Positions 3 through 41,600 of a DNA stretch of 64,000 bases are shown piece by piece (within the stretch, counting starts at the first letter, position 1; every line of letters begins with the position of its first letter). Position numbers and translations under genes: made by a program. The stretch lies in contig JASAND010020284.1 of NCBI GenBank assembly GCA_030248195.1, forward strand, positions 1 through 64,000. The letters run 5' to 3'. This DNA comes from Trissonchulus latispiculum (Eukaryota; Nematoda; Enoplea; Enoplida; Ironidae). The notes below the pieces were generated by a model. That model was given only the letters and a program-made list of their open reading frames with translations, was not told the origin of the DNA and searched no databases.

Positions 3-3000
3 CGACCAAAACGTCACATCTACGTGGTGGGACCCCCTGCGGACCCCGAAATGCCTGGGTATGATCTTGAGACCTTCTTCAGGATGGTGGATCAACGTAA
101 CCCGGTGTTCTGGGAGGTTTACCGGGAGGTTCCCACGGATGGCTCGGGCCCTCCTTTGCGGTGGTCCGATCTGGTCATCCTGTATCGGAAACGGGACGGT
201 GGTGCTATGGCCCATGGGATCCTACCCTACATTAACACCTTGAACTCTTTAAGTGTCGGGGACACGAACTTTTCTCAGCTTATGGGCCCGATGTTCCTCG
301 AAAAGGAGCAGAAATCGGAGCTCATGCAGGTGATGCAGTTGGCGGAACTGCAGGGCCTCAATCCGGTCGTGGTCACGCGGGAGCACGAGGGACTCTGCAA
401 ACGGCCTGGACATTTTGACATCGGACTAGCGGCCGTGACCCAACAGGCCCCGGACTCGTCCGTCTTTGTGCTTCCTGAGCCCCGTGCAACTGGTGATGTG
501 ATGATGGGTCCGTCAGTCATCCGGACTTTGATGGGAACGGCGGTCCCGTCCACACCTATGGTCCCCGCAACACGATTCGGCTCGAAGCTCCGTCGAGTCG
601 AGTCATCACCAGGGCGAAACGGCCAGCGCCATCGCTCGGTCAGCACCAAAATCCCCGTTGGTTGGAGCGGAGGCAGCGAGACCTGGTGCGTCTTCCTCTC
701 AGTCAGAAGTTTTCGGCGGTGTTTCTGGTTCGGGACGAGGTCGCGGATTTCGTCCTTTCGGATCCGAATCGGATTCATCAACGGCAACCGCTATCACGAC
801 TCGCTCAACACCTGTGAGTCTACGTCACCGGTCAGGCACACCTGGTCGGGTGGCCTATGTCCCTCTGGAGGAACCACCTCTGGATTCTCCGGCCCATGAC
901 CAGTGGGAGGCCGTCTATCGCGGTCAACGGGACATTCAACCCTTCAACATCACGTCAACAGCGATCGCCCCGTCGGGAGGCATCTCGCCCTCCCCATCCA
1001 TCGAACCTCGTGATCGTGACTATTCACGGTCACACCGTCGTGAACCCTCGACTGATCGTCATCGTCAGCGTTCGTCATCCCGTCGTCGGGATTCCCGTCC
1101 AACGTCACGAGCGTCTCGCGGTGATCGGTCACCGGAATCTCGCGATGATCGCGGTCAGCATCCGTCTACGAGCCATCACGAGCGTCAACCAGCCCGTGAA
1201 CGATCACCATCGGCTCGTCGTCGTGATCAGGACCGGCATCGGCAACCATTACGGGATCGTCGTTCGGAAGATTGTCAACGATCGACCGAGCGTCGGCATG
1301 AGTCTCGCAATCGTCGCGCTGACCGTCGACCTCCAACCTATCCGAAGGGTCAGCATCACGTCGAGTCTCGTCAACATCGTGACAAACGCTTAGCAGCCGA
1401 CGCGTTAAGCCGACAACGACCGCAGAAGTCGACTTATCGCGTGCCACGAGTGAAAACTATCAAGAAACCGGATGGTCAGAATTCTGCGATTCTGGAACTT
1501 CCGCCCGAATATCCCAACAACTATTCGAAGGACAATTTTCCGCCATTTTGGGTTTACTTGGTAAATGTCCTCTGCGACATGCTTAATCGTGACATTGCTC
1601 GTACGGTTTCTCGGGGAACCGAGGACCCGCTTTACGATGAATTTCAAGTCGAGCAACCGACACCGGCTGAAGTCGCTGAGATCAAAATGGACCGTTGGCC
1701 CGACGATCCAATCGTCTATTGTCAGGATAACAATCTCCAGTGGATTCCACACAATGTCCCTGGAGACCCGTCTGAGAAGAAACTCCATCCTTGGGTGGCC
1801 TTGTTTCGCGACGAGGTCCTCAAGTGGATGCAGGCCAATGCCCACGTATCCCAACGGTTCCCATCGGACTTTATGGATCACATCTGGCAACGGATGTGCG
1901 CCCGCGACAGCCATCTGACCAACCACATGACGGCGAACCCGGAGTCTGAACAGACCGGCGGTCGGACTGTCTGGCATTCGCGATGGTCATCAAGGACTAC
2001 CGTGATCGTCACGGGAAGTTGTTCAAAGGCTTCCCTGTCAACCGCGTCTCGTCGAATGCACGATGGGCCAATTGCCTGGCCATGGCAGCGTTGGTACCCG
2101 AGCTCTTCCGGTACCCGCATCTGATTCGACGATACGAATCCCAGCACTTCTACGTGGCCCACATGCACGCTCGGCGTCTTCGGACCCGCTGCATGACGGT
2201 CCGTCAGGCCATGCTCGGATATCATCGGCCCAACGTCGAGGGCATCGCGAATGTCGATGAAGGCTATTTCCTGTGCTTCTATCTGGGGCCGGACTATGCT
2301 TTCTCTTTCATACAATCATCTGCCGCATGTGTCGTTGCCGGTGGAGCAACTTGAAAACCAGGGTTTTCAGACCAAGGAACACCTGTATCAGGGGCGGAAG
2401 GGCTGGTTCTGCCAGTCCGATGTAGTCATGGACCTAGTAAGGGAGCATCCCCATCAGGATGGCTTTACTATTAAGCGTAGCACGGATCAAGCCATTGCTG
2501 CACTGCCCGCTTGTCGCATCGAGCGATGGCAGTCGAGTCCAGATCAGCTTACCCAGCGGCTGATCATTTTCCACACATTCTATCAGTCCGTGGAGATGCA
2601 GGAGTTCCTGGTCCAGACCATTGGAAGCTATTACGGGAAGGCTTCCGCGGATTCTTGGTGGGGCCTTGGTGTTCGGGTTCCTCGTAGTTTCAAACCGGAT
2701 AATCTGACTTTCAACGGTAAGCACAACTTCCTGTTCAATACGGACAATTGGAACGGGCAAAACATCCAGGGGTCCCTTTACACCGAAGTGGGCCTTTGGT
2801 TTATGCAGGCGGGCCCTGATGAGCTCTGGGAGGACCGGTTCAACCGTGTTCCACTGTCCGGCGCTCGTCTCGACGCCTACCTCGACGTCGTCCGGAAGCG
2901 CATAGAGGCGGCGGCCGAGCGTTATAACCGAGGTCAGTCCGCACCTCCGTTCTTTAGGCAGGAAGCACCGGCGGCCCTTCGGAAGCAGCCGATTGATATT

Positions 3001-3159
3001 CCACCTAATTGGACCGGTGTCCATATTACCGGGTGCGCTCCGCCGGGACAGGAGAAGAACACCTTTAACCCGTGTTTTGCCCTGACCATCTGGAAGCCGT
3101 TGGAACCCCACCCTTGTGACCATCACAGATACACTGAACTGATCATGCGGGAATATTGA
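3..3159 (+). pseudogene. Frame-broken NADAR-domain polyprotein, 5' end outside window
   Basis: The coding signal runs from the window edge to a TGA at about 3159 but changes frame three times. Frame 3 is open from base 3 to about 600, frame 1 carries it to about 1960, frame 3 to about 2300, and frame 1 to the end. The N-terminal part is unrecognised. The middle (about 980-1400) is an Arg/Ser/Asp/His-rich low-complexity tract resembling SR-type tails. After it come globular stretches rich in Trp and Tyr, and then a NADAR-like domain. The frame changes suggest either a decayed gene or assembly errors; programmed frameshifting is less likely because the direction alternates. No RT, integrase or transposase signature is visible. 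Seen: frames and composition. Inferred: one ancestral protein, probably carried by a mobile element, since the window's other NADAR protein sits in one. Confidence 0.6.
2299..2830 (+). other. NADAR (YbiA-like) domain in the broken polyprotein
   Basis: In frame 1 the conserved landmarks of the NADAR family appear in order. A degenerate SNFY-like start is followed by a KEHLYQ-x-x-K motif matching E-H/Q-x-Y-Q-x-x-K. Then come a Trp followed by a helical stretch ending in EFLVQT, an ASADSWWGLG motif matching the family's A/H-x-x-D-x-x-W-G-x-G, and WNGQNIQG matching the N-x-x-G segment before the last strand. E. coli YbiA has the same order and similar spacing. NADAR proteins are linked in the literature to NAD/ADP-ribose or related N-glycoside chemistry. 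The role here is unknown. The first motif is weak, so activity is uncertain. Confidence 0.72.
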
Positions 3160-9139: not shown

Positions 9140-10114
9140 TACCTGCGAAGTTCTGTCGTGAGGCGCTTGGCATCACCGCGACGACGCACCTGTTCACTGA
9201 CTCCGAGTGCGTTCTGGGCTGGGTCAAGAGCAAATCCCCCCTGAAAAGATTTGTCCACAACCGGGTCGAAGAGATTCGAGGCCTGGGAAACGCGGAGTTC
9301 CACTATGTGGGAACGTCGGACAATCCTGCGGACTATATATAGCACTCGTAGCAAATCGGTGGCAGATCTCATCGAGTCGAAAACGTGGTGGCACGGCCCG
9401 TCTTGGCTTTCCAATGACGATAGCGGGTGGCCACATACTCGCATTCCTGCTATTCCCAGCGAAAAATTGCTTCTGATGGAGCAGGAATCAGCTGGTGCGG
9501 TCGTCACTCTGGCTGCAGTTGCGGAACCTGAGGGTCCTCTGCAACCACTGGGCATCGATCTGAAGAAGTTCTCATCTCTCGGAAAACTGCTCCGCATTTC
9601 TGCGATCTGTGTCAAGTTTCTGAAGAACACGGTCTGGTCCAAGCTGTCAGATCAGACTCGTGACCGTTTCCCCTCTCTATTAGCGCTTTTCGGCGATATG
9701 ACGGACGAATCTGCCGTTCAAGCATCTGAAATCCTGGCATCGAAGCGTATCTGGACGAAATGCGTGCAAACGCGCGTTTTGACGTGTTTTGACGTTCAGG
9801 ACGTGTTCAAAGCGCTGCACGGCAAGAAAAAGCACAATCTGGTCGAACAGCAAGGTATCAAGATCAATCCGGACGGATTCCTGCGGACATACAGTCGTTA
9901 CGGGCGTTCCGGCCTCCCCGATGGTGCCAAGGCTCCGCTCCTGCTGCCAAAAGACGACCCGTTCACGTGGCTTGTTGTTCAGGACGTCCATCGCGGGATC
10001 ATGCATTCTGGAGTCTCTCACACGCTGAGTGAGCTTCGGAAACAGTTCTGGGTACCACACGGTCGTTCTTTTGTTCGTAAAGTGCTGAATAAATGCCGAA
10101 TGCGTACCTATTAG
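9140..10114 (+). pseudogene. BEL/Pao retrotransposon pol remnant (RNase H to integrase zinc domain)
   Basis: The first part reads FTDSECVLGWVKSKSPLKRF followed by a TSDNPADY-like motif, the typical end of a BEL/Pao RNase H domain. A stop and a frame change near 9340 interrupt it. The next frame (to a TAG at 10114) continues with WWHGPSWL, characteristic of Pao elements. It then gives LLLPKDDPFTWL, an H...H pair and VRKVLNKC, matching the H2C2 zinc-binding start of the integrase. The catalytic integrase core, RT and protease are absent. No LTR was found nearby, so this is a dead fragment. Confidence 0.85.
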
Positions 10115-11946: not shown

Positions 11947-12404
11947 CATTAGGCACCAGCCCATCTCCTCCATCCCTTCCAGAAACCACAAAAACATAGT
12001 CAGAGCAACGATAGAAATCAAACCAATCTGCATACCACATACGGAATGCACAATAATCAAAGATCGAATAGGTCCAGCAATCCCTCATTGTCAGCCAAGG
12101 AATAGCTGAAATACCGTCGGTCCAGGGGCGCTTCAATGCGGACTGCGAGTTGAGCGGGAACGGGTTCTTCTGTAACAACCACACAACTTTACGATAAAGA
12201 AAAACCGTGTTGGTCGCGATTAATGAGTAGTGAAACAAGCATGTCTATGAAATGTGTTTCAGAGACCAATGTTTTTTGTAAATCCAAGCATGAACTGGAC
12301 CCAAAAAGCTGATAGAATAGGACAAAATGAGGCAACAAATTCTTCGGTAGGTGTGACACAATGAAAGAGATTTTAATACGCACCATGTCCTGCCTCCTCT
12401 TCCT

Positions 12405-14219
12405 TTGGCACAACCAATTCTGGTTCAGGCACGGCGGGGCGCTATCAATGAGAGTAAACAGTTGTGCCAATACTCACAGTGCAGAAATTTAGAAGTTTTT
12501 CTCGAAAATCTTGATTGGGGTATAATATTTAATGGATGTGCGTCCCCCTTGGATTACTGGAACGAATTTTCCAATGTCATCAAGTATGGAATTCAAACTT
12601 TTATCCCTAGAAAGAGAGTGAAGTTCGCTCATAGGAATCTTTTCAACCTATCTGTAGAATCGTTAAATGCAATTAATGAAAAACGCAAGTGTTACAATAA
12701 ATTTCGCCTGCTTGGAACAGACTTCTGGAAAGACCGTCTTCGTTTCTGGACGAAAAAATGTCGATTACTTGTTTCGAAAGATAGGGCTACCCATGAACAC
12801 AGCATTGCTACAGCAGGAAATCATGGTACATTTTTTAAATATGTGAAGAAGGTTTTGGGCAGAGATAGTTTAATTCCTGACCTTATCCAGGACAATCAAC
12901 GTTTCAATGACGATAAGGCAAAGGCTAATTGTGTAAACGATTTCCTTTGTAGCGTATTCACAGAAGATAGCGGTATATTGCCTCGATTCGAAAATCGGAC
13001 TGTTGCAATTTTGGATAATATTGATTTTACACCTGATCTTATTAGGTCCGCACTTAGCAAGATGGCTAGTAAGTATTCGTCAGGACCAGACGACATTCCT
13101 GCAATTGTTGTTAAAAAGTGTTCTGAGACTTTTATATTTCCCCTGTGTAAATTGTTCTCTATTTGTTTTGAGCGTAACATGTTACCATCGGATTGGAAAA
13201 GCGCTAATATCACGCCGTTGTACAAAGGGTCAGGTTCTAGTCACTCTCCTACTAACTACAGACCTATATCGCAAACTTCAGCTTTTGGAAAATTAATGGA
13301 ATCCTGTGTCAAGCATGAAATGTTAACTTTTCTAACAGAAAATAATTTACTGAGTCCGCAGCAACATGGCTTTCTACCAAGTCGCTCTACTGTAACACAG
13401 TTACTTGAGAGCTTAGATGAATGGATGGACAACATGGAGCATGGAAACTTAACTGATGTTGTGTACCTCGATTTACGCAAAGCTTTTGATTCTGTTGTTC
13501 ACGAAAAGTTGCTTCTAAAGTGTGCCGCATATGGCTTTCGCGGTAATTTACTATCATATCTGAGGTGTTTTCTGGAAAATAGGTTACAGCGTGTACGCAT
13601 TGCTAACGTGTATTCATCGTGGAAAGTGGTCAAAAGTGGTGTTCCTCAGGGGTCTGTGTTGGGACTATTATTGTTTCTCGTCTATATCAACGATATGCCA
13701 GAAATTATGCAGAGCTCGCATGTGAAAATGTACGCAGATGATGTAAAACTATATAACGTCCGTAAGAGAAATGAAATTAGAGCAAGAGGTCTACAGCATG
13801 ATTTAACGTCTACTGATTTTTGGTGTGATATATGGCAATTGTTAATTAATGGTAAAAAATGCAAATGTTTACCTATTGGATGGTATGCTTTAAATCCTGC
13901 TCAGTATAGCATAGCTGTAGACGAAATAGAAATGGAAACAGTAATGAAGGATTTAGGTGTTTTTATTGATGGTAAGCTTACTTTTTCGGCTCACTGTGCT
14001 AAAATAGTGAAAACTTCATCGCGTACTGTTGGTCTCATTTATCGTGCCTTTAGTTGTCGAAATGTATCTTTCATGCGTATGATGTTTGTGATGTACGTGT
14101 GTCCTATACTTGAGTATAATTTGGAAATATGGTCTCCTAAAGATATTGACTTGATCGAACGTGTTCAACGTAGTTTTTTGAAAAGGATAAGGGGGTTTTC
14201 TGAGCTGACGCACTGTTTT
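12405..14219 (+). pseudogene. Non-LTR retrotransposon (CR1/Jockey-like) ORF2 fragment with reverse transcriptase
   Basis: A frame of about 600 codons carries the RT motifs in order: ITPLYKGSG, NYRPIS, QHGFLPSRSTVTQL, VYLDLRKAFDSV (motif A with Asp), SGVPQGSVLG (motif B) and KMYADDVKLY (motif C). A thumb region follows with EMETVMKDLGVFID. The upstream apurinic-like endonuclease is missing: the frame begins abruptly after a non-ATG codon, typical 5' truncation. The C-terminal zinc knuckle is lost because the element is cut at about 14205-14219, where AT-rich MITE-like DNA begins. The catalytic Asp residues are intact, so the break is at the ends rather than in the core. Confidence 0.9.
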
Positions 14220-14490
14220 TTATCATTTTGATAAGAAATTTTCAGGAATGATAAAAAATTTTTGGCCGATTTTATCAATCGATAAGAAAATTTCGGAAAT
14301 TTTATGCTGGCAATAAGAAAAAATAAAAAATGAAATGGTAAGATTTGGCTGCAGCCGGGAAGAAAAAATAATAAAAAAACCGAGAGCTTTTGCCTCGCTT
14401 CGCTCGGCACATTCATTTTCTTAAGGAAGGAAAACGCGCGAAATACCAAGTCAATTTTTAGGTTTTCAGGGTTTAGGTTGTTGCTCGCCA
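14205..14490. mobile_element. AT-rich MITE-like segment carrying the GCCTCGCTTCGCTCGGC word
   Basis: It contains GGCTGCAGCCGGGAAG followed by GCCTCGCTTCGCTCGGCAC, the same module as in the MITE at 4043, inside otherwise AT-rich DNA with TTTTATCATT/GATAAGAAA words. A second copy of the module lies at about 14680-14740. It truncates the LINE on its left. I could not define a target duplication. Confidence 0.45.
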
Positions 14491-20930: not shown

Positions 20931-21604
20931 CCAGGAAAATTTTTGATCAAAAAACGAATACCGGATTTGAATTCCTTGACCCTGAATGGACCATATAGCG
21001 TGTATCACATTAAAAAACAAAAATAAAAACATTTTATCGATCGATGCGATCAATCGATACGATTGATCGATTGAAAATATCGACTAAAGAAAAAAGTTTC
21101 CTAATTTTTGATTAGCTTTCAAGTAAACCCAGGAACGTCTAAATCGGTCGAGGCGTTCCTGAGTTAATAGCCCGGACGGACACACATACACATACAGTGA
21201 GGGGAGTAGCCGGACTACAGGCCTACCCATATCCATGCCAGTCTTTTGAATGTATTTGAATTGAACTATTGAGACTTGAAATATTCTTTAAGATGCGTGG
21301 TGAAACTAAACTAACTAACGAACTGTGCTGTCAGAAAAGTGGCTCAGTACATCAGATGACGCTTAAACCGGTGTTACAATCATTATTCACCGTTATTGTT
21401 TTGCAGTCTTTACAGTTTTATTTTTTACGTCTTGAACTGTTGAACATGCGACACATACCAGTTCCAATAGTTTAACAGTTTCTCCTTTGCAATTTAATAT
21501 CTATCTCTATTTCATTCAATGTATACTACACGCTACACGCCCTACTGCGATTGGCTCTGCTTTATTCACTGCAAAAGACCGTCATTGAGATGGGTCTTTG
21601 AGCC

Positions 21605-23266
21605 ATGATGGAAACACAACCACAACACCAACCACGGAGAATGAAGACGATCCTAAAACTGAAGCGTTTCAAGTGTTCACTGGCTTCGTCTGCGTTCGCT
21701 AAAAAGATTCCAATTCAAAAGGTTGTTCCAGAGCGCTTGCGGGACGGCAGGTTTGGGAAGACAGTGTGGATTTTTGCAACCTTGGCCGTTACTACATTTT
21801 GTGTGTTTCAAGCGGCTAAATTAACACAAAAGTGTCTGTCTGGTGAGCCGGTAACTGTTGTCAGAATTTCTGATGATAACCGCATGCCAAACATTGCTAT
21901 ACTAGTAGAACACGCTATTGTCTCATACTGGCTAGATGCATATTTTCTTAATATGTCTTCTGGTAGCGAGACGGAAAAAATTTCGAATATCGTGGGTGAG
22001 GCTTATCACAACGCGTTTGTAAGTATTCGAGAGGAATGCTATCGACGATCGCCTGTTCCGTGGCCGTTTGCTTCATCATTTACTGATGCTAACGTCACAG
22101 CTTGGCTATTCCCTTTAATTCGCAAATACGACGGAATGCTCAATTTAGCTACTGCAATGATGCCACCAGCCGAATACTTCATGGGAGCGCAGTGGATTCC
22201 AAAAAACCTAAACCTCGCTTCGCTGTATTTAGAGAAGGAAGACACATTACCGTGCGACTCTCGAGCTGGTTACTGCGCACGCGACTATGGACATCATCCC
22301 GTGGCTGTTGTCCCGAATATATCCATTTCGGCGGCTATGAAAGAGGTAGGCGTTGCCTACGTTATAAATTCATCTATCCTCGTTGCGGACAGCAGCAAGA
22401 TGCTGGTAGTGCAGCATCAGTGTGTCTTCGACTCTCCTTATTACATATCAGCAGGTACCACAGCAGAGAAGCTTGACCACGTGGGAATCCCGCTAAACCC
22501 AAACCTTAGCTACTCTATCACCATGAACGTCAGACGATACAGCCGTGAAAAAAGGTACTGCAACGAAGAGCTGACAAGCACTAACCTCAGCTGCATATCG
22601 TTATGCTTAGTGAAGCGAGTTAAAGCTACGCCTAGCAGTTGCTTGCCGTGGATTGGCGATATTGGAAAACTCACTGGCGTTAAGCACTGTTTGGATAACT
22701 TGACAAATCTTGTGCCTATGAAATACAAGTATCCTAGCGAAGACTCATGGCCGTACAATACGTCGCAGAACGATGAATGCTACCATCCAGGTACCTTGCC
22801 TGTCGACTGCATGGAGGAATGTGATGACGGCTCGCGTTCTGCCTCCGACAGAACATTGTGCAAGGAAACAGTTGTCCAATTTACAGTTTCGCCTGCTATT
22901 CAAGTGTTTGAAGGTTATGTGTTCGACAGCCAGTGTGGCGGAGAAGTTCCGCCCATGTTGATGATATCAATGGAAGAAGATAACATCTACGAAGTGGAAA
23001 TGAAGGATGGATACACATTCCCGCAGTACGTTGCTGACCTCGGAGGCTTGCTGGGCTTCACACAATACTCTACAATGTTGGCAATTGCATGTCAGTTTCT
23101 GTGGCAGAAGTTGCAGGACAAAATGAAGACTTGCAACAATCAGGCGAGCAACAGTCGGAGCAAAAATGGTCATAGAAGAGAGGGGGCTCTTCGACAACGG
23201 GGAGCGAGAATCAGGCGGCGAGCGACGGTGGTGGGCCTGAGCAGTCAACATAACCGCGTAATATAG
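21605..23266 (+). CDS. DEG/ENaC-like ion channel subunit, intronless
   Basis: An uninterrupted 553-codon frame begins at tandem ATG codons. A basic N-terminus precedes one hydrophobic segment (about residues 56-75, WIFATLAVTTFCVFQ). A large Cys-rich, N-glycosylation-rich loop follows, then a second hydrophobic segment near residue 490 (YVADLGGLLGFTQYSTMLA). Two membrane segments around a Cys-rich ectodomain, with an L-G-x-x-x-G-x-x-x-x-S signature at the second one, is the DEG/ENaC/ASIC layout. Such trimers conduct sodium across the plasma membrane. The N-terminal His-Gly gating motif is not evident and the G-x-S filter is altered, so it is a divergent member. The C-terminus is Arg-rich. An AATAAA at 23345-23350 fits the poly(A) signal. 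Lack of introns could mean a retrocopy. Confidence 0.72.
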   Translation: MMETQPQHQPRRMKTILKLKRFKCSLASSAFAKKIPIQKVVPERLRDGRFGKTVWIFATLAVTTFCVFQAAKLTQKCLSGEPVTVVRISDDNRMPNIAILVEHAIVSYWLDAYFLNMSSGSETEKISNIVGEAYHNAFVSIREECYRRSPVPWPFASSFTDANVTAWLFPLIRKYDGMLNLATAMMPPAEYFMGAQWIPKNLNLASLYLEKEDTLPCDSRAGYCARDYGHHPVAVVPNISISAAMKEVGVAYVINSSILVADSSKMLVVQHQCVFDSPYYISAGTTAEKLDHVGIPLNPNLSYSITMNVRRYSREKRYCNEELTSTNLSCISLCLVKRVKATPSSCLPWIGDIGKLTGVKHCLDNLTNLVPMKYKYPSEDSWPYNTSQNDECYHPGTLPVDCMEECDDGSRSASDRTLCKETVVQFTVSPAIQVFEGYVFDSQCGGEVPPMLMISMEEDNIYEVEMKDGYTFPQYVADLGGLLGFTQYSTMLAIACQFLWQKLQDKMKTCNNQASNSRSKNGHRREGALRQRGARIRRRATVVGLSSQHNRVI

Positions 23267-31284: not shown

Positions 31285-31671
31285 TGGAATGATGAGTACC
31301 GTAGGCAAAATATGAGCATACATGACACACAGTTGTGTGAATGTTTCGTTGTAGGTTAATGGTTATGTGCAATGACGTGCGGGATGGGTTTACCTTTAAA
31401 GCAAATGCAATAAAAATGATCTCGTGGGCATAATGTGGTGCAAATGTAGCTGTTTCAAGGGGTACTCGTACCCCTGGACCTTTGGAGACCGGAACCGAAA
31501 TCCCACAAATATCCCGTTGATTTTTCCGAAATTCCCCGCTCAACCTGTGGTTTCTCAGTGGAATTACGGGGAGGGGCAAGGTTGTAGTTTAACAATTATC
31601 CCCATTGTTAAATCGATCCCAAAATCCCTTTTTTAAAAACAATACTTGGCTCGCTTTCTCTGCTGAATTCC

Positions 31672-32040
31672 CGTAGTGTTGTTTCAGTAGCCCATTTTAG
31701 TTTCAGTTTCAGTTTCAGTTTCAGTCGACAGCCTGAGTTAATTTCAGTTTCAGTTTCAGTTTCAGTCAGATACCAAAAATAATTTCAGTTTCAGTTTCAG
31801 TTTCAGTCGTCACCCCAAAACAGTTTCAGTTTTAGTTTCAGTTTCAGTCGCCGGTCGAAATTAATTTCAGTTTCAGTTTCAGTTTCAGTCGGTGACGCAA
31901 AATAGTTTCAGTTTCAGTTTCAGTCGGTGACGCCAAACAGTTTCAGTTTCAGTTTCAGTCCATGTTTTAGAATAGTTTCAGTTTTAGTCCGGCTTTTTCA
32001 GTTGAAGTCATCGCCCAAAAAGATGAATTTCAGTTTTCGC
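31672..32040. mobile_element. TTTCAG-hexamer MITE, right end missing
   Basis: It starts TAGTGTTGTTTCAGTAGCC and then repeats AGTTTC more than thirty times, broken by short unique spacers. It is related to the complete element at 62443-62917. The right end and TSD were not found. Confidence 0.7.
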
Positions 32041-32225
32041 ATATTTGTAATTTAAAACTGTTGAAGCTGTAGTTTTATTTTAAATATCAGCTTCTATGTC
32101 AGTTCTGAGTAAAACAGTTTTATCTAATATACTGTACTTGCAATCCAATCATTTTCTTTGTGAAGACAAAAAATTAAGATTCGTTCAGAATTAAGTTTTA
32201 ATAGTTGCTTTAATAGTTTAGTAGT

Positions 32226-33069
32226 TGTGAAGTTTGACTATACTAAACTTAGTAAAAACGTTGCTGTTGTCTGACTTTATTCTCTAGGATAAGACTAAAC
32301 TACAGGTAACAACAGTGGTGTGTGATGTTGGAGAATTGTCCGGACCTGACCGACTGAGAACGACAAAATAGATTACAACGGTTTATTTAAATTTAGACAA
32401 AAACTTGACGACGAGATTAGAACAAACATAAATTTCAACCAAAATATGACTTTGACGAAAATACTGTTACAACACCAAAACGCCCGGCAGAAGCCGGCAG
32501 AGCGACAAGGCAAGAAACTTGACCAACGACCAATTCGACTAACCCCCAAAGTTCAAACCCAAAAGATTGCGACCCAACCGTTCTCAACAAGACTTATATC
32601 CACACTACTTCTAAACAACCCAACATGGAAGAATACAACTATTAGCTATCGAACCTACGAATTTAGACAAGAGTGATGTGAAATGTTTGAGCGTTCAACA
32701 AATGAAATGTTATTTTCACTTAGGCTTAGAATCTCAAGCATAATTTATATCTTTCCTGTCGGTGCTAACTTCACATAATACCCCCTCTTTTGGCCCCGGG
32801 CGGCCTCGGACGGGTCCACTAAGTTAGACGACTTGATAAAAAGAATATTACTCACAGGTACCTTAGGTACTAGTAAAGATAAAACTTTTGTGAAAATTAC
32901 GTAAAGATAAAAAGAAACGACTGCGGTGAACATACACCATACCACGGTTGAGCACACAACTTTTCTAACATGCTAACCGGCCGACGGTAAAACTACTCGT
33001 AACTCAATCGAGACATTTTTGACAAAACTACCGCAAAAACTTACTTACCTACTTCAAAATAACCTACGT
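32226..33069 (+). repeat. Left 844-bp terminal inverted repeat
   Basis: Perfect or near-perfect reverse complement of 38266-39109. Short frames in it mirror those in the right arm and are not considered genes. Confidence 0.95.
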
Positions 33070-35531
33070 AAAATTTGAAATTCCCGCCCGAGTACACCCA
33101 GGTACCAAAAGAGTAGGGAGCACCGACAGGAAACAACAGCAAAAATAAGAACAAAAACCCAACATTGTGAATATATATAAGTGACAAGAAAAATTATTAT
33201 GCATAGAGGTATTAAACAAAGGCAGTATAAACAAGAAATCAAAAAATTGTACATGGAATTAGCAGCCAAGATGGAATGAAGTAGCAAGAACAATGCCAAA
33301 CAAAATACTAGATTAGTAAAAACAAAAGAAAAAGGTAGTGTCATCAAGAAATTGTAGTATTCGAGGAAAAAGCAACGAAAATTTGGAAATAGAAAAAGAA
33401 GCATAAACCGTGTAACCCGATTTAGTAGAAAAACAGACAGAACAGAGATAGTGAAAAAAAAAAGTGACTATACCGACACCGACAGATACAACGGATATAC
33501 CGAGGTGGCGAGCGCCCTGACGAAAGAAGAAATGAAAATGTCATCAATTAAACCCCAATTTTGAAATTTAATCCCTACGGCTCCCTCCCAACAATCACAA
33601 CCAAGAAACTAGAACCCGAAAAGATACCAATCACCTAGACATTGATTAAACAACAATACAAAAATCACACAGAAATAGGGGCGGGGGGAGAGCGTCACGG
33701 GTGTGCAGAGACAGGGACACTGGCGGTTTTCTCCCCAGCACCGCAAACTGTTGCTATTCCATTCATAGAATCCTTCAACCAAAAGTTCATATGGCCGGAT
33801 CCTACCACGGCTGACCGTAGCAGGCCTCGTGAGGCCTCCTGACCCTCGCCACCAAGTCCAACCCAAACCAAACCGAGCCACCAGGCACCCGGGACCAGGA
33901 CTGAGCACAAGGCAAACGGCCAAACAGGCCGTAGAAGCAGCAGCCCGGCACCCCAACGGCGGTAGGAGGACCACAGACACTAAGGCCCCAATCCCAGAAC
34001 CAAAAAGCAGGCTCCAGGAGGTAGAGACCCGCCAAGGCCCCAAAGGCCCTGACAACGCAGAGACCCAACCAGGCCACACAACCAAGATGGCAGGCACAGG
34101 CAACAAGGCCTGCCAACAAAGTCCAGCAAAGGCCAGGAAGACCCACCAAACCTGGCGCCGACGAAGATGACAGCCAACTACAGAGGCAAAAAACCCCGCA
34201 AGCCAGCACGGCAACCAAACCACTGGAAGCGGAACGCTTCACAAAGTCACTAGGGCAGCCAGGCAAGCCAACAACACCAGGCGCCCAACCAGATGACAGT
34301 CGCACAAAGCACAGTGCGCCCCAAAAAGTCCAAAAAGACCGGCCAAGCAGACCGAACCAACCAATGTCGGCCAACCGACCGACCAACCACAGCCAAAACC
34401 TGGCCACCGAAGAGTCCAGAGGCCTGCTACGACGGAGGACCAGTAGAATCCAGCCCCAGCAGCCACCGTCCAGACGTCATGGCAGTAGAGCACTGCGCCA
34501 GACCTTCGCACCAAGCAATGGGCGGTAAAATCCACTCCTGATCCATCCAGCACAAATCCTGGGGGGCACACCCGGCACTGAGGATGGGGGGTCGGCACCG
34601 GCACAGCACAGAAAAAGTTACAGGATTAACTAAAACACACAAAAACAAAAATTAAGGCAATCATATAAAGCACAGAAGAATCATGATTAATAAATGGCAA
34701 AATTAAACAAAACAAAATACTGACGATACATAGTTACAGCCCCACCTATGACTTTAGTAGCTCCAGAACCAATGGGAGAATCGCAGCCCCGGTATGCGGA
34801 GGAGAAACCCCATAGGCCTGTGCTTATCAAAGAGAATCTCAAAGGCAAACTAAACGAAACGGAATCAAAAAGGTAAAAAGAATGTTAAGGAGCGTGCGGC
34901 CCACCTCACCCGGTATGCGGAGACCGGAGCGGCCCGCAACTTAACACTCCAAAAGCGAGTGTGAAAAAAATGTAGGAGCACCAAAAGTTAAAAGTTGTAA
35001 AAAGGTTAAAAAGAAAAATCCAATCTGCTGTGTGGAATTTAGAAAATCAATGAAAATCAGAAATTAAAGTTTATTCCAAGAAGGATGTAGAAATTCAAGC
35101 GAAATATATTCAGAAAAGCGACTTTAAAGTAGTAAGGAGAAAGATCTATACGTACTAAAATCAAGGAAAAGGAAGAAAAAGTTTGAAATCGTTTACAAAA
35201 CTCAAAGAATCCAAGGAATAAAATACTCAGATGAACAAAAGTTTATGAATTAAATCGTAAAAACAGTGAAAAGCACGAAAGTTATCAAGAAAATCATCTA
35301 AAAGAGTCAAAAATAGCACGACATGCGTCAAAAATCAAGTAGAATGACCCACACAGCAGATAAAAGTTAAATGTAAAAATAGTAAAAAGAAAAGAAAACG
35401 AGAGAACCCCCCACCCCCCATGATAAAACAGTAAAGATGAAAGAAAAAGATAAAAAGACTTTTAAGCACCAGTTTTTAGCACCAACCTGTAAATAAAGGG
35501 GCAAGAATATACACAAAAACTGCATGAGAAC
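33070..35531. other. Non-coding interior of the long-TIR element
   Basis: Apart from the 88-bp repeat this stretch holds no credible gene. At 33670-34600 the + strand is C/A-rich, so the opposite strand reads as Trp/Gly/Leu-rich frames with no family resemblance. At 34700-35500 it is A/G-rich. Two GGTATGCGGAG phrases occur near 34793 and 34910. In the sense of the NADAR frame this is the 3' side. Confidence 0.5.
33569..33656 (+). repeat. 88-bp internal direct repeat, copy 1
   Basis: Identical by eye to 38177-38264 and in the same orientation, which places one copy on each side of the element's interior. It is independent of the inverted arms. Confidence 0.9.
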
Positions 35532-38174
35532 TTAGGGCGGGACGATCTTTCCGATCGCCGCCCGGTGGGCCCGCTGCCTGTCATTCCAAAGTTGTTCCAT
35601 TTCGCGATTTAAATTTGGAAACAGTTCAGCGCGCAAAATCATCATAACTTTTCCCAACCAGTTGCGGTTTTTCTCCTTATGCACACGAATAATTTCACTA
35701 GTAATTTGGTTAGGAGACAAATTATCAATCTGCTTTTTATTCAAACCAATTCCCCAATACGGGTCACTGGTAGCTTCAACCAGCAGTCGGCAGCCCGAAT
35801 CGCGCAAAAAGTCAACAAACTCTGGGCAAGATTTAGCCTTAGCACGCAGGACTTCAAGCATCACAAACGCGCGTACATGCATATCTTTGCCTTGCCACAA
35901 TTTGCGAATCACAGAATCAGGTGGCAGCCAACCCATAATTTGTTCAGCGGCAAATTTGCAATAGAACGGATTCAAATACTCCGCACAAGCCTCAGCAGGG
36001 GCATGCCAACAAGCAAAAAAGAAAAGTTTGCGAAATTGGTACGCTTGTTCAGCCGTTTGAAAATAGTACCCCCACAATTCAACCCACCCATTTGCACCCG
36101 GGACCTTTTTCGGTTCAAGACGAAACATATTAGACGCCGGGTCAAAAGCACCTTGAAAGCGAGCAATCGGATGAAAGTAGGGAAAATTAGAAGCGCGCAT
36201 CAAAACATGACCCAAACATTCATCAGTGACCTCCTTTGCCACCTTAATCATTGTTTTGGATCTTTGAGCCCATACCCGAATCAAATCTGCCGACTGCTGG
36301 AAACGCGAAAGAGACGGATAAATATTCACAAACGGAAAAAATCGCGAAATTAAATCAGCGAGCGCAGCAACTTTATAAGGCGCAAAACCAACAACTTGGA
36401 ATGATTCAAAAAGAACTTCGTCATTCTGCAAAATAGCTGGAAATTTGATAGAAAGTTTCCAATATTCCGGTTCTTCCAACTGAATGCGGTAAGAAGGATG
36501 AGAAACCGGTTCCAATTTATCCCATGTGATGACAGGGCTTGCATCAGAAAAGAGAGTGTTAATAACCCCAAAATAATTTTCCATCGCAAAATCAGTCAAT
36601 GCGAATGGAGCATGTTTCAAATTTCGAAAATAATTTTCCCAATACCGAAAAGAACTAGTAAAATAGGGATTCAAAAGCGAGGGATCCGATTCTGCAGCGA
36701 AATCGGGCAAAGTCACAACCTGCCATTCAAATTCCGAATAAACCCGCAATGGGACTGCCCGTCGATCATTTAGAATAGCTGACCACACAGCCTGATGATA
36801 ATGTGGGTCAATTTCCTGCGGACCCTCGTACTTAGGGGCCCCTATAAGGGCACCATCATCAGTAGTGAGAGCAATCGATGGAGGCTTCATAGACCTGATT
36901 TCGCGGTCCAAAGTAAACCCACTGCGGTGCGTAACATGCGGTGGTGGGTCAGCATAAAAACGAGGGACCGCTTTTTCAACCAGATAGCGTGCAGAATATT
37001 TATACAAAACTTGCTTCGCATTTGCAGGATGGTCCCAAGGGGCCGCCACACATTCAAACTGTTCGCTCAAACTCGCAAAAGAGAGAAAATGTGACTCAGG
37101 CCACTGAATAGTAGGAGACGAGGGCAAAGTTGCCGAGTCCCTCAGTGAAAAAGTCTGTGACGGAATGTCTAAATTCAGTGAAGACAAATGTTCATCTTTA
37201 TGCTGTGGAAAATCGCGTTTAGCATACTTAGGATCAGTTGAAAGAGGTTGTGAGGCTTCCTGAGCCTCCGCAGCTGCAGAAGTCCCAGGTTGTCCAGATG
37301 TGGACGAAGCCTCGTCCGAGCTAAAACGCACCGTAGCACGTGAAGCCGGGACTGAAGAAGAACGAGAGGGGCGATTTGTGCCCGGAGTAGGAGCAAACAT
37401 AGGATCGGGAGTCAATCCCAAACCTGCAGATGGAGTGCCGGCAGGCGGGACACCCCCTTGCTCCGGAAAAGTAGAACCTGGAAAAATAATTTGCAAAATT
37501 TGAGTCAAAGAAAAATCAGAACGAGACATCAAAACATAAACAACCTCGATAGCATCCCACGGAGCTGGATGACCAATCCAGACTGACAAAAGTTCCTTAG
37601 AAAAACCCAAGGAAGCAAGCAGCGCGAATTGGACATCAGTAGAAATTTGAGGCATGCGGTGCCAAAATGCATCAGAAAATGAAGTTCTAGCTGCAACAGG
37701 TAATGAGCCCAACCCAGGCGTGCGAAAATTTAGATGTGGCATGAACCACTCTACTTGTGACTGATCCGCCTGTTGTAAACTCGGCTGATTTTGCACATTC
37801 CAGATAGGGACTGTAGGGGTAGGGGAGGGAGAGGTAGGAGCGGAGTGGGAAACGGGACGGGGAAGAGACATACGTAAAGGACAACTCATGCGCGGCTGAA
37901 AAGCAGGTGTGGACGTCGGCTGATGACGTAAAAATTGAAAAGACTCACTGAAAGTAGGGGGGCGCATCACCCCAGTTTGAAGAGAAACCGACGCCGAAGA
38001 AGTAGAAACAGGCAAATTTAAACGTGGCGGAGCCGGCCAAGCTCCAAGTGGAGCCGGAACCGGCTGCGGCGATGGCTCAACGGCCATTTGCCCCGCCAAA
38101 GAAAGAGAATCAGCCACCAAATTTGCAGGAACTAAAACTGAAGTGTACCGCTGGGGCCCTTGTTCGGTCTGCAC
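35532..38174 (-). CDS. 880-codon protein with C-terminal NADAR domain
   Basis: The frame is open from 38216 (upstream TAG at 38217-38219) to its stop at 35532. The first in-frame ATG is about residue 30, so the start is probably near 38087 unless translation begins at GTG or after splicing. Residues 1-320 are Pro/Ser-rich. Residues about 330-650 form an unrecognised globular region. Residues about 660-851 are a NADAR domain: ASNFPYF, then TAEQAYQFRK, a Trp helix, LLVEATSDPYWGIGL and NWLGKVMMILRAEL match the family order. The predicted catalytic glutamate (LVEAT) and W-G-x-G are kept, so it may be active. NADAR enzymes are linked to NAD/ADP-ribose or N-glycoside chemistry; the target here is unknown. 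No DNA-binding or recombinase domain is recognised. Confidence 0.85.
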   Translation of the reverse strand: MQTEQGPQRYTSVLVPANLVADSLSLAGQMAVEPSPQPVPAPLGAWPAPPRLNLPVSTSSASVSLQTGVMRPPTFSESFQFLRHQPTSTPAFQPRMSCPLRMSLPRPVSHSAPTSPSPTPTVPIWNVQNQPSLQQADQSQVEWFMPHLNFRTPGLGSLPVAARTSFSDAFWHRMPQISTDVQFALLASLGFSKELLSVWIGHPAPWDAIEVVYVLMSRSDFSLTQILQIIFPGSTFPEQGGVPPAGTPSAGLGLTPDPMFAPTPGTNRPSRSSSVPASRATVRFSSDEASSTSGQPGTSAAAEAQEASQPLSTDPKYAKRDFPQHKDEHLSSLNLDIPSQTFSLRDSATLPSSPTIQWPESHFLSFASLSEQFECVAAPWDHPANAKQVLYKYSARYLVEKAVPRFYADPPPHVTHRSGFTLDREIRSMKPPSIALTTDDGALIGAPKYEGPQEIDPHYHQAVWSAILNDRRAVPLRVYSEFEWQVVTLPDFAAESDPSLLNPYFTSSFRYWENYFRNLKHAPFALTDFAMENYFGVINTLFSDASPVITWDKLEPVSHPSYRIQLEEPEYWKLSIKFPAILQNDEVLFESFQVVGFAPYKVAALADLISRFFPFVNIYPSLSRFQQSADLIRVWAQRSKTMIKVAKEVTDECLGHVLMRASNFPYFHPIARFQGAFDPASNMFRLEPKKVPGANGWVELWGYYFQTAEQAYQFRKLFFFACWHAPAEACAEYLNPFYCKFAAEQIMGWLPPDSVIRKLWQGKDMHVRAFVMLEVLRAKAKSCPEFVDFLRDSGCRLLVEATSDPYWGIGLNKKQIDNLSPNQITSEIIRVHKEKNRNWLGKVMMILRAELFPNLNREMEQLWNDRQRAHRAAIGKIVPP

Positions 38175-38176
38175 TG

Positions 38177-38264
38177 TAATCCCTACGGCTCCCTCCCAAC
38201 AATCACAACCAAGAAACTAGAACCCGAAAAGATACCAATCACCTAGACATTGATTAAACAACAA
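38177..38264 (+). repeat. 88-bp internal direct repeat, copy 2
   Basis: Second copy. It lies between the right TIR and the first codons of the NADAR frame, so it would form the 5' leader of the minus-strand transcript. Confidence 0.9.
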
Positions 38265-38265
38265 A

Positions 38266-39109
38266 ACGTAGGTTATTTTGAAGTAGGTAAGTAAGTTTTT
38301 GCGGTAGTTTTGTCAAAAATGTCTCGATTGAGTTACGAGTAGTTTTACCGTCGGCCGGTTAGCATGTTAGAAAAGTTGTGTGCTCAACCGTGGTATGGTG
38401 TATGTTCACCGCAGTCGTTTCTTTTTATCTTTACGTAATTTTCACAAAAGTTTTATCTTTACTAGTACCTAAGGTACCTGTGAGTAATATTCTTTTTATC
38501 AAGTCGTCTAACTTAGTGGACCCGTCCGAGGCCGCCCGGGGCCAAAAGAGGGGGTATTATGTGAAGTTAGCACCGACAGGAAAGATATAAATTATGCTTG
38601 AGATTCTAAGCCTAAGTGAAAATAACATTTCATTTGTTGAACGCTCAAACATTTCACATCACTCTTGTCTAAATTCGTAGGTTCGATAGCTAATAGTTGT
38701 ATTCTTCCATGTTGGGTTGTTTAGAAGTAGTGTGGATATAAGTCTTGTTGAGAACGGTTGGGTCGCAATCTTTTGGGTTTGAACTTTGGGGGTTAGTCGA
38801 ATTGGTCGTTGGTCAAGTTTCTTGCCTTGTCGCTCTGCCGGCTTCTGCCGGGCGTTTTGGTGTTGTAACAGTATTTTCGTCAAAGTCATATTTTGGTTGA
38901 AATTTATGTTTGTTCTAATCTCGTCGTCAAGTTTTTGTCTAAATTTAAATAAACCGTTGTAATCTATTTTGTCGTTCTCAGTCGGTCAGGTCCGGACAAT
39001 TCTCCAACATCACACACCACTGTTGTTACCTGTAGTTTAGTCTTATCCTAGAGAATAAAGTCAGACAACAGCAACGTTTTTACTAAGTTTAGTATAGTCA
39101 AACTTCACA
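38266..39109 (-). repeat. Right 844-bp terminal inverted repeat
   Basis: Partner of 32226-33069. The 88-bp direct-repeat copy ends one base inside this arm's inner edge, and the NADAR frame begins just beyond it. Confidence 0.95.
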
Positions 39110-39529: not shown

Positions 39530-41600
39530 TACACCGTTGCACGTAATCTGTGACATCCTTGTACAGTGTCGGCCACCAGAAGGTCCGGGAGATGCCATGA
39601 ATGGTTTTATCTCTCCCTCCATGGGCAGCTGCCTTCACGTCGTGGTAATCGCGGATCACCCGTAGCCTCCAATTGGGAGGTACACAGAGTAGATTGTTAC
39701 CTGTAGGATCGTTACATAGAAGTTCTGCTTCGGGACCTAGAGCATGCAGGTGGGCCGAAGCCTTGACTTCTGCCGCATAATTCAGGTCCTCACCCTCAAG
39801 TCGATGGTCCTTCAGAAAGTGGATTAGGGCTTTAGCATAAGGAGGGTACCGTGCTTGTTAAATAATCATCTGTGGGCTGGCCTCGGCGGGGCCTCCGCTG
39901 GGGACGTCAACAACCTGGCATACCTCACCTTCTGGGGTAGCTTCATCGTCATTGGGAAGTAAAACCTTCCTTGCCCATTCAGGGTCCTCGTATTTCTTAC
40001 CCGTGAGGGGACTAACAGGATAGCGGCTTAAGACATCAGCGTTGGCGTTGCTTGCCCCCTTGCAGTATACAATTGTAAGATTATACCCGCCCAGTCTTGC
40101 CGCATAGTTGACTAACCTCTTATTGGTTTGTCGCTTGGTCATCAGTGCACACAAGGGTTTATGGTCCGTATACACCGTAAAATGTCTAGGACCGTCCAGA
40201 TACTCGTCAAAGTAGTTCACTCCCCAGTAGATGCCCAAGGCTTCCCTTTCTATGACCGCGTAACGGCATTCCGCCTCCAGAAGAGTCCGACTGGCATAAG
40301 CAATCGGATGCTCATCACCGTCCTGGATCTGTGACAAGACCGCACCTATTCCATAACCACTCGCGTCCGTAGCCAGAATAAATTCCAGCTCGAAGTTGGG
40401 GTGCCTCAAAATGGGCGCTGTACACAGTAGTTGTTTCAATTGGGCAAGTGACTCCATTTGCTCTGGACCCCATTCAAATGCTGCCCCCTTGCGGCGGAGC
40501 TTGTTGATGGGTTTGGCCAGTTTGGCGAAGTCGGGAATGAACCGAGAGTAATAGTTGAGCTTACTCATTATGGATTGGACATCCTTTACCGTCTTTGGGT
40601 CAGGTAGTTCGGCCACTGGTCTTACCTTCTCATCATTGGTCGCTATCCCCTTCGAGTTGATGACACATCCCAAGTAGATGAGTTCAGTCCGTACGAAGTG
40701 GCATTTCTTGGGGCTGATTTTCAGTCCCGCCCGCATAAGTCGTTTGAATACCTCTCGTAGAATGGCCACATGCTCCTCGAAGGTCTTAGTGAAAATCAGT
40801 ATGTCGTCGTTATACACCATGACATTGGCTTCCAAACCTCGAAGCTCGAATGTCATAATGGCCTGGAATTTACCTGAACCTGAATTGATACCGAAGGGTA
40901 CCCGTGTAAATTCAAACTGGCCCAAAGGCGTCGATATCGCAGAAATCGGGATGCTTTCCTCTTCTAGGCCTATTTGCCAGAACCCCTTTACCAAACCAAT
41001 GCTTGTAAAATATCTCATACCTTCAAATGAAGATAACAAGGTATTGATTTTTGGAAGCGGGTGGCCACAGGTGAGGGCCACCAGATTCACCGGTCGATAG
41101 TCAATGACAAGTCGCATACCGCCCTCCATTTTTCCAGCATACAGTATGCAGGAAGCCCATGGTGAAGAAGATGGTCGAAGTATACCTGCGTTTAGCATGT
41201 CCTTCACGTCGATTTTCAGTTGTTCCAACTTGTGGTGAGACATTGGTCGAGGTTTGTGATATATGGGCTTAGCGCCACCAACGTCGATGCGGTGCTTGCC
41301 GCCATTGTATAAACCAATGTCGTATTTGGAGTGAGACAGAATGTCGGGGAATTCCATAAGTAGTCTTACAACCTGCATCTTTTGCTGAGTCGTCAGCGTA
41401 GCCTTGGTGATCCTATACTGCTCCAGTAGTTGAGTCCCCTCAGGTGTAGGTAGAGAAACATCTTTAGGCACTGGTAAATTGTAGTCAGTACGTAACCTAG
41501 GGGCTCGATCCTCCTTGTTGTCATACCCCGGTAGCTCGCGACTGGTGTACGAGTCATATGGGTTGGAGTCAATGGTATCATCCACAACAATAGAAAACAT
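39530..41600 (-). pseudogene. Ty3/Gypsy pol: RT-RNase H, integrase start, RT damaged
   Basis: The 580-codon frame (41600-39858) carries an RT with ILRPSSSPWAS, LVIDYRPVN and LPKIN. Motif A reads SIGLVKGFWQ (residues 200-209), where Gypsy elements have S/T-L-D-L; residue 202 is Gly, so the first catalytic aspartate is gone. Motif C is VYNDDIL (residues 262-268), with N in place of the usual V or I. RNase H follows with LATDASGYGIGAVLS and VYTDHKPL. Beyond its stop, 39660-39530 still shows the integrase H2C2 region (HDVKAAAHGGRDKTIHGISR, then WWPTLYKDV). The catalytic core is deleted. A short upstream frame (42010-41657) ends before this one and may be gag-pol linker. Confidence 0.9.

Follow-up and report, generated by a model that had tools for sequence, protein, structure and literature searches.

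A NADAR domain closes ORF3 of a probable Ty3/Gypsy-type long terminal repeat retrotransposon family in a nematode genome, seen from a rearranged copy with inverted arms

What kind of element holds a NADAR enzyme domain in its only large frame, between two long and perfectly inverted arms? The question is raised by a 64,000-nucleotide stretch of the nematode Trissonchulus latispiculum (contig JASAND010020284.1, positions 1 to 64,000; hereafter the window), in which positions 32226-33069 and 38266-39109 form arms of 844 nt each, spaced 5,196 nt apart. The original prediction took them for the ends of a recent mobile element with terminal inverted repeats (TIRs), and a re-check of the strings confirmed at full length that the arms are equal and identical (100% complementary). 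Between them lies a single long frame, stop-free over 880 codons, whose product (P0001) ends in a NADAR domain as predicted; three smaller frames (116-204 amino acids, aa) matched no Pfam family, and none of the four element frames matched a transposase in a Pfam scan. The evidence below makes it likely that the window does contain part of a mobile element, of a different type: a rearranged, 5'-truncated copy from a Ty3/Gypsy-type long terminal repeat (LTR) retrotransposon family, in which an intact third open reading frame (ORF3) would encode an accessory ADP-ribose eraser.

The arm was searched against the window's own assembly (734 Mb in 21,732 contigs), and the best 40 of 1,145 candidates were scored; two are the window arms and 38 lie elsewhere, at 83-89% identity. 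In the 28 outside copies read (L011-L038), the match starts at base 1 or 2 of a common TGTGAAG terminus, the outer flanks are mostly unlike, and the inward run is the sequence that follows the left arm of the window. Outside the terminus of two copies (L014 and L021), the sequence resembles a primer-binding site (PBS), as though copies had been joined in tandem. No inverted LTR was found in any of the 28 copies, most of them read for 1.5 kb on either side. Six were re-read over 7.6 kb, which would reveal a second LTR as distant as that in the window; none of the six has an inverted one, and two have one in direct orientation. LTR matches were compared at 37 loci (both arms of the window, the 28 outside copies, the 7.6-kb readings of six among them, and a single extension), and more than one match was found at three loci, on the same strand every time. 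In C17553, two direct LTRs identical over 548 bp carry ACTT on either side, a 4-bp target site duplication (TSD). In C8205 the partner lies in the extension, where the first ~555 bases repeat in direct orientation ~13.8 kb away with 98.6% identity, and the 4-bp TSD CTGT stands on both outer flanks. The LTR in these two relatives has TG...CA ends (TGTGAAGT...ACTTCACA). Each arm is one 550-bp LTR together with 294 bp of adjoining 3' internal sequence, and the inverted form is found at the window only. A genuine class of TIR transposon with NADAR as its only gene, to which the perfect 844-bp arms, sharply bounded on the outside and enclosing a single long ORF, would lend themselves, can hardly be right in the light of these direct partners and the lack of inverted ones; in addition, the window copy has no TSD, its junction was seen once (best 40 of 390 candidates scored), and its relatives are LTR elements. 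A cut-and-paste TIR transposon was rejected, there being neither a transposase in the four frames scanned nor a recurring TIR-bounded unit with TSDs among the copies read.

The organization of the family is revealed by its other members. C8205 contains a PBS (TGGCGACCGT) two bases past the 5' LTR, which we take to be that for tRNA-Arg, and a polypurine tract (PPT; AAAAGAGGGGG) directly before the 3' LTR. L040 aligns with the window in one piece at 90% over 6.0 kb, covering everything between the left LTR and the beginning of the 880-codon frame, and then continues; L041 and L042 show the same alignment in several pieces and continue upstream. In C8755, a 2,405-aa frame upstream of ORF3, still open where the stretch ends, encodes protease (PR), reverse transcriptase (RT), RNase H (RH) and the zinc-binding and core domains of integrase (IN), in Gypsy order; it also gives a weak, sub-threshold gag match. 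RT-RH-IN is present in C9249, and in a diverged subfamily (ORF3 ~52% identical) an RT-RNase H-integrase frame is followed by ORF3. The window copy itself contains no pol, and C8205 has lost part of it. The claim that NADAR is the sole large gene thus holds between the arms and fails for the family, whose members carry PR-RT-RNase H-IN upstream. The complete element would read LTR - PBS - gag - PR-RT-RH-IN - ORF3 - long 3' region - PPT - LTR, with its sense strand the minus strand in the window. Inverted ends of the DIRS or Penelope type are ruled against by the direct LTRs with TSDs and by the RT-RH-IN pol, and 5' truncation of the kind seen in long interspersed nuclear elements (LINEs) was rejected because the ends bear LTR, PPT and PBS. 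A CARD frame (PF00619, E 3.7e-7) was observed at 2073-2642 of L039, immediately upstream of the shared gag; the CARD domain was dropped as a candidate part of Gag, as the L039 stretch read contains no 5' LTR and the frame lies outside the shared gag.

The NADAR domain was checked against the PF08719 profile, which matched residues 691-851 of P0001 with 42.3 bits (curated cut-off 35.1; E 1.2e-10). The ORF3 frame spans ~1,700 aa in relatives (1,721 aa in C8755), and of the 56 P0001 matches listed, from 52 scored among 1,756 candidates, 11 fall within frames of 1,695-1,727 aa that contain no stop. Residues E709, K716 and E800, which by motif correspond to the catalytic E and K and the YbiA-type E in the last strand, are invariant in 12 of 12 sequences; catalytic roles for these positions have been published (PMC11543638, PMC11125620). 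Among four further ORF3 copies, only L053 entered the analysis; L051, which is interrupted by a stop, was left out, as were L052 and L054. The domain is under strong purifying selection, and its predicted structure has a YbiA-like fold. These data show that NADAR is conserved and constrained and has the expected fold in prediction, and that many copies keep ORF3 open. The N-terminus of the same protein is perhaps DEDD-exonuclease-like, on the weak evidence of a predicted model. Protein-database searches at E 0.001 gave no match for P0001 residues 640-880 (454 candidates) or for a full 1,695-aa ORF3 (7,981 candidates scored, those with the most words in common). The predicted transposon class gives way to an LTR family with an intact, constrained ORF3, in which NADAR, perhaps together with an exonuclease, occupies the position of env.

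How, then, did the window copy come by an inverted arm? With a junction query (38080-38360; best 40 of 390 candidates scored), the junctions were spanned by the window alone, and the other 39 rows matched either the arm piece (about 187-281 of the query) or the filler piece (about 98-188). For the arm piece, the left arm of the window itself heads the matches listed (100%); for the filler piece, it is the window's internal copy at 33569-33659 (99%). The right side thus consists of pieces closest to this copy. Its order is mid-ORF3, two extra bases, ~91 bp of filler, two shared positions and the inverted 844 bp. On the left, the flank is a dispersed repeat, of which three uninterrupted copies are 95-99% identical up to base 32225, their continuation being absent from the window. 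Because the target repeat is cut exactly and its remainder is gone together with the 5' half of the element, both losses date from the insertion or came after it. The element now begins at mid-ORF3, and where its upstream part and the rest of the target would be expected there are a ~91-bp fragment of its own 3' region and an inverted 844-bp copy of its 3' end, which stops exactly at the LTR terminus. The right flank matched itself only (1 of 1 candidate in the assembly), and a search with the joined flanks (40 of 160 scored) returned copies of the left target repeat and the window, with no empty site spanning both flanks. The inverted arm, the lost 5' half and the lone ORF are the outcome of one rearrangement. 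Arms without a difference over 844 bp point to a recent event, in line with the original prediction, but identity in the other copies scored is no more than 83-89%.

In a repetitive assembly of 21,732 contigs, repeat copies might have been mis-joined. Such an artefact is unlikely, since a simple hairpin palindrome is not seen (the two flanks are unlike, and there is no mirror symmetry in the 5.2-kb spacer), the best 40 scored include no further copy above 89% that could have been mis-joined, and the filler with its 2-bp overlap resembles a repair junction. For a real event, the inverted piece would be the end of a linear, LTR-ended complementary DNA (cDNA), captured at a break and joined by end-joining. 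Alternatively, one recent source may have given rise to two neighbouring insertions of opposite orientation, whose tails were then brought together, with filler between them, by a deletion. Twin insertion is possible, if doubtful: it would account for both outer ends being exact LTR termini, for unlike flanks without a TSD and for the missing other half of the left target, but it requires two copies without a difference over 844 bp, and it is the left copy that the filler matches best and whose orientation it shares. Capture of a cDNA end appears slightly more likely than a second, opposite copy, given that no other copy scored exceeds 89% identity and the two arms do not differ at all.

NADAR is found in several other mobile-looking gene contexts of the same genome. 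In a Pfam search of the assembly, the best 150 of 2,478 candidates were scored and all 150 exceeded the cut-off; the gene context was read over short stretches for a handful of these, and the classes given here are provisional. In L001, with look-alikes L004 and L005, an A32-type ATPase lies near, and NADAR adjoins a gene for TATA-binding protein (TBP; PF00352, E 5.7e-37); this repeated element seems to be mobile or viral and to carry its own TBP. L048 (1980-5501) combines an integrase core, an A32-like ATPase (below cut-off) and NADAR, provisionally a Polinton/Maverick-like set, and its NADAR protein may bear a C2H2 finger. NADAR also lies near a YqaJ-like viral recombinase gene (L047) and near a frame resembling one in L001 (L049). 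An exonuclease-like part accompanies NADAR in L007, L008 and L050; in the latter two, both occur in a recurring frame of 645-705 aa, DEDD-exonuclease-like with a weak exonuclease Pfam match in L050 only, which is adjoined by protein-kinase frames. The window itself contains a second, divergent NADAR-like frame (2197-3159, plus strand; 28.2 bits, below cut-off), which aligns with P0001 in 170 columns at 22% identity. This frame keeps the E...K motif, has K in place of the last-strand glutamate, and shares its strand with integrase zinc-binding and RT frames (9245-10114 and 12357-14231).

In the intact family, ORF3 would act as an accessory enzyme in the life cycle of the element. Its NADAR domain would remove ADP-ribose (ADPr), most probably from guanine, on element RNA or cDNA, and would thereby shield reverse transcription from host ADP-ribosyltransferases. 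The NADARs assayed in the work cited act on guanine-ADPr in DNA (PMC11543638, PMC11125620). This activity speaks against a second role, in which NADAR would not erase defence marks but would have soluble ADP-ribose derivatives as its substrate or would help the exonuclease-like domain to process RNA ends; such roles have been suggested both for NADARs of viruses and for the elements of Ectocarpus and oyster (PMC9503650, PMC12477816), and the exonuclease-like model in the same ORF3 would fit them, yet we consider them rather unlikely. More speculative still, and in our estimate improbable, is the idea that unrelated elements (Gypsy, Polinton-like, TBP-bearing A32-type and others) each took up NADAR as an eraser because the host ADP-ribosylates guanines of foreign nucleic acid. 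If true, it would amount to an undescribed genome-defence chemistry of animals, which the ORF3 of retrotransposons would counter. That one enzyme for ADP-ribose removal was captured repeatedly suggests a part for ADP-ribosylation of nucleic acids in the conflict of animals with their transposons, which existing biochemical assays can test.

Several results weigh against reading the locus as a Gypsy-type copy whose ORF3 encodes an eraser. Gag gave weak Pfam matches only (E 0.015 and 0.072, below cut-off), TSDs come from the two relatives in which both outer flanks were read, and the outer bases of the window copy show none. The exonuclease-like model has low confidence (predicted local distance difference test score 53); Foldseek alone found nothing for it at E 0.001, and its weak matches include transposase, integrase and RT chains. 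Pfam gave nothing meaningful for the N-terminus of the Gypsy ORF3, and its profile comparison with the exonuclease-NADAR pair gave a probability of 5%. A search of the genome for DarT-family transferases had no match; the matching host modifier is therefore hypothetical.

Table 1. Features of the rearranged copy and its left target in the window
Feature	Position	Strand	Basis
Host target: dispersed repeat copy ending exactly at element end	32050..32225		Three other copies run past this point uninterrupted; remainder of repeat absent from window
3' LTR, 550 bp, TGTGAAGT...ACTTCACA	32226..32775	-	Matches both direct LTRs of C8205 (47-600, 13830-14386 of stretch) and of C17553
PPT GGGCCAAAAGAGGGGGTATTA (minus strand), adjoining LTR	32776..32796	-	Same in C8205
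3' internal sequence within left arm	32797..33069	-	Other copies continue from here into conserved family sequence
Long 3' region, ORF3 to PPT, probably non-coding	33070..35531	-	Aligned in L040-L042; two frames scanned, Pfam-negative
Internal copy of sequence recurring at right junction	33562..33659	+	Sequence match
ORF3 C-terminal 880 codons (~1,700 aa in relatives)	35532..38174	-	Alignment with relatives
NADAR domain, P0001 residues 691-851, with E709, K716, E800	35622..36104	-	Pfam match
Filler	38175..38267	+	38177-38267 equals 33569-33659 at 99%; two unmatched bases before; two positions common with next piece
Right arm, inverted copy of element's own 3' end	38266..39109	+	Identity with left arm
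Inverted LTR copy, ending exactly at LTR terminus	38560..39109	+	Followed by unrelated flank, once in assembly

Around the element, a TTTCAG-rich tandem repeat (31658-31965; six overlapping copies at 41-bp spacing) adjoins the target repeat, and a further RT/RNase H frame lies just beyond the right end (39858-41600, minus strand), the region being a nest of retroelements. Elsewhere in the window, an amiloride-sensitive sodium channel-like frame (21602-23266, plus strand; PF00858, E 1.4e-6) is of animal type. A COX1 match falls in several frames and suggests an invertebrate-like mitochondrial code.

The original prediction knew of no transposon class defined by a NADAR gene, which stands in part: NADAR has been published in Gypsy elements of Ectocarpus and in Tx1 LINEs of oyster (PMC12477816). 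In the literature covered, from which most subscription journals are absent, no paper was found that describes a NADAR ORF3 following integrase, a retrotransposon protein with both an exonuclease and NADAR, or an association of NADAR with Polintons; the part of PMC7264820 consulted, on extra ORFs of plant LTR elements, does not name NADAR. With DarT1-associated and stand-alone NADARs (PMC11543638, PMC11125620), the domain shares its fold and the catalytic E, K and E positions; those, however, are free-standing antitoxin or phage proteins and not the end of a retroelement protein. The Phalaenopsis Gypsy element with an AlkB N6-methyladenosine demethylase (PMC9289625) similarly carries an eraser of nucleic-acid modification, though of other chemistry, and with activity demonstrated there and predicted here. 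Juno and Vesta, LTR elements of bdelloid rotifers with a DEDDy-exonuclease ORF3 (PMC5408684), resemble this family in having an accessory enzymatic ORF3 in the env position and in having ORF types common to unrelated retroelements; the word NADAR is absent from that paper, whereas here an exonuclease-like part (on weak evidence) and NADAR occur in one protein. Capture of NADAR by an animal retroelement has a parallel in the Tx1 LINE of Crassostrea gigas (PMC12477816), which is a non-LTR element with the NADAR-like domain in ORF1. Also close in kind are Ectocarpus Gypsy elements with a YbiA-family NADAR (e.g. Gypsy-12_Ec32; PMC12477816), likewise Ty3/Gypsy LTR elements with a fixed NADAR; there the domain sits in the Gypsy Pol, while here it closes a separate ~1,700-aa ORF3 downstream of integrase, in an animal genome.
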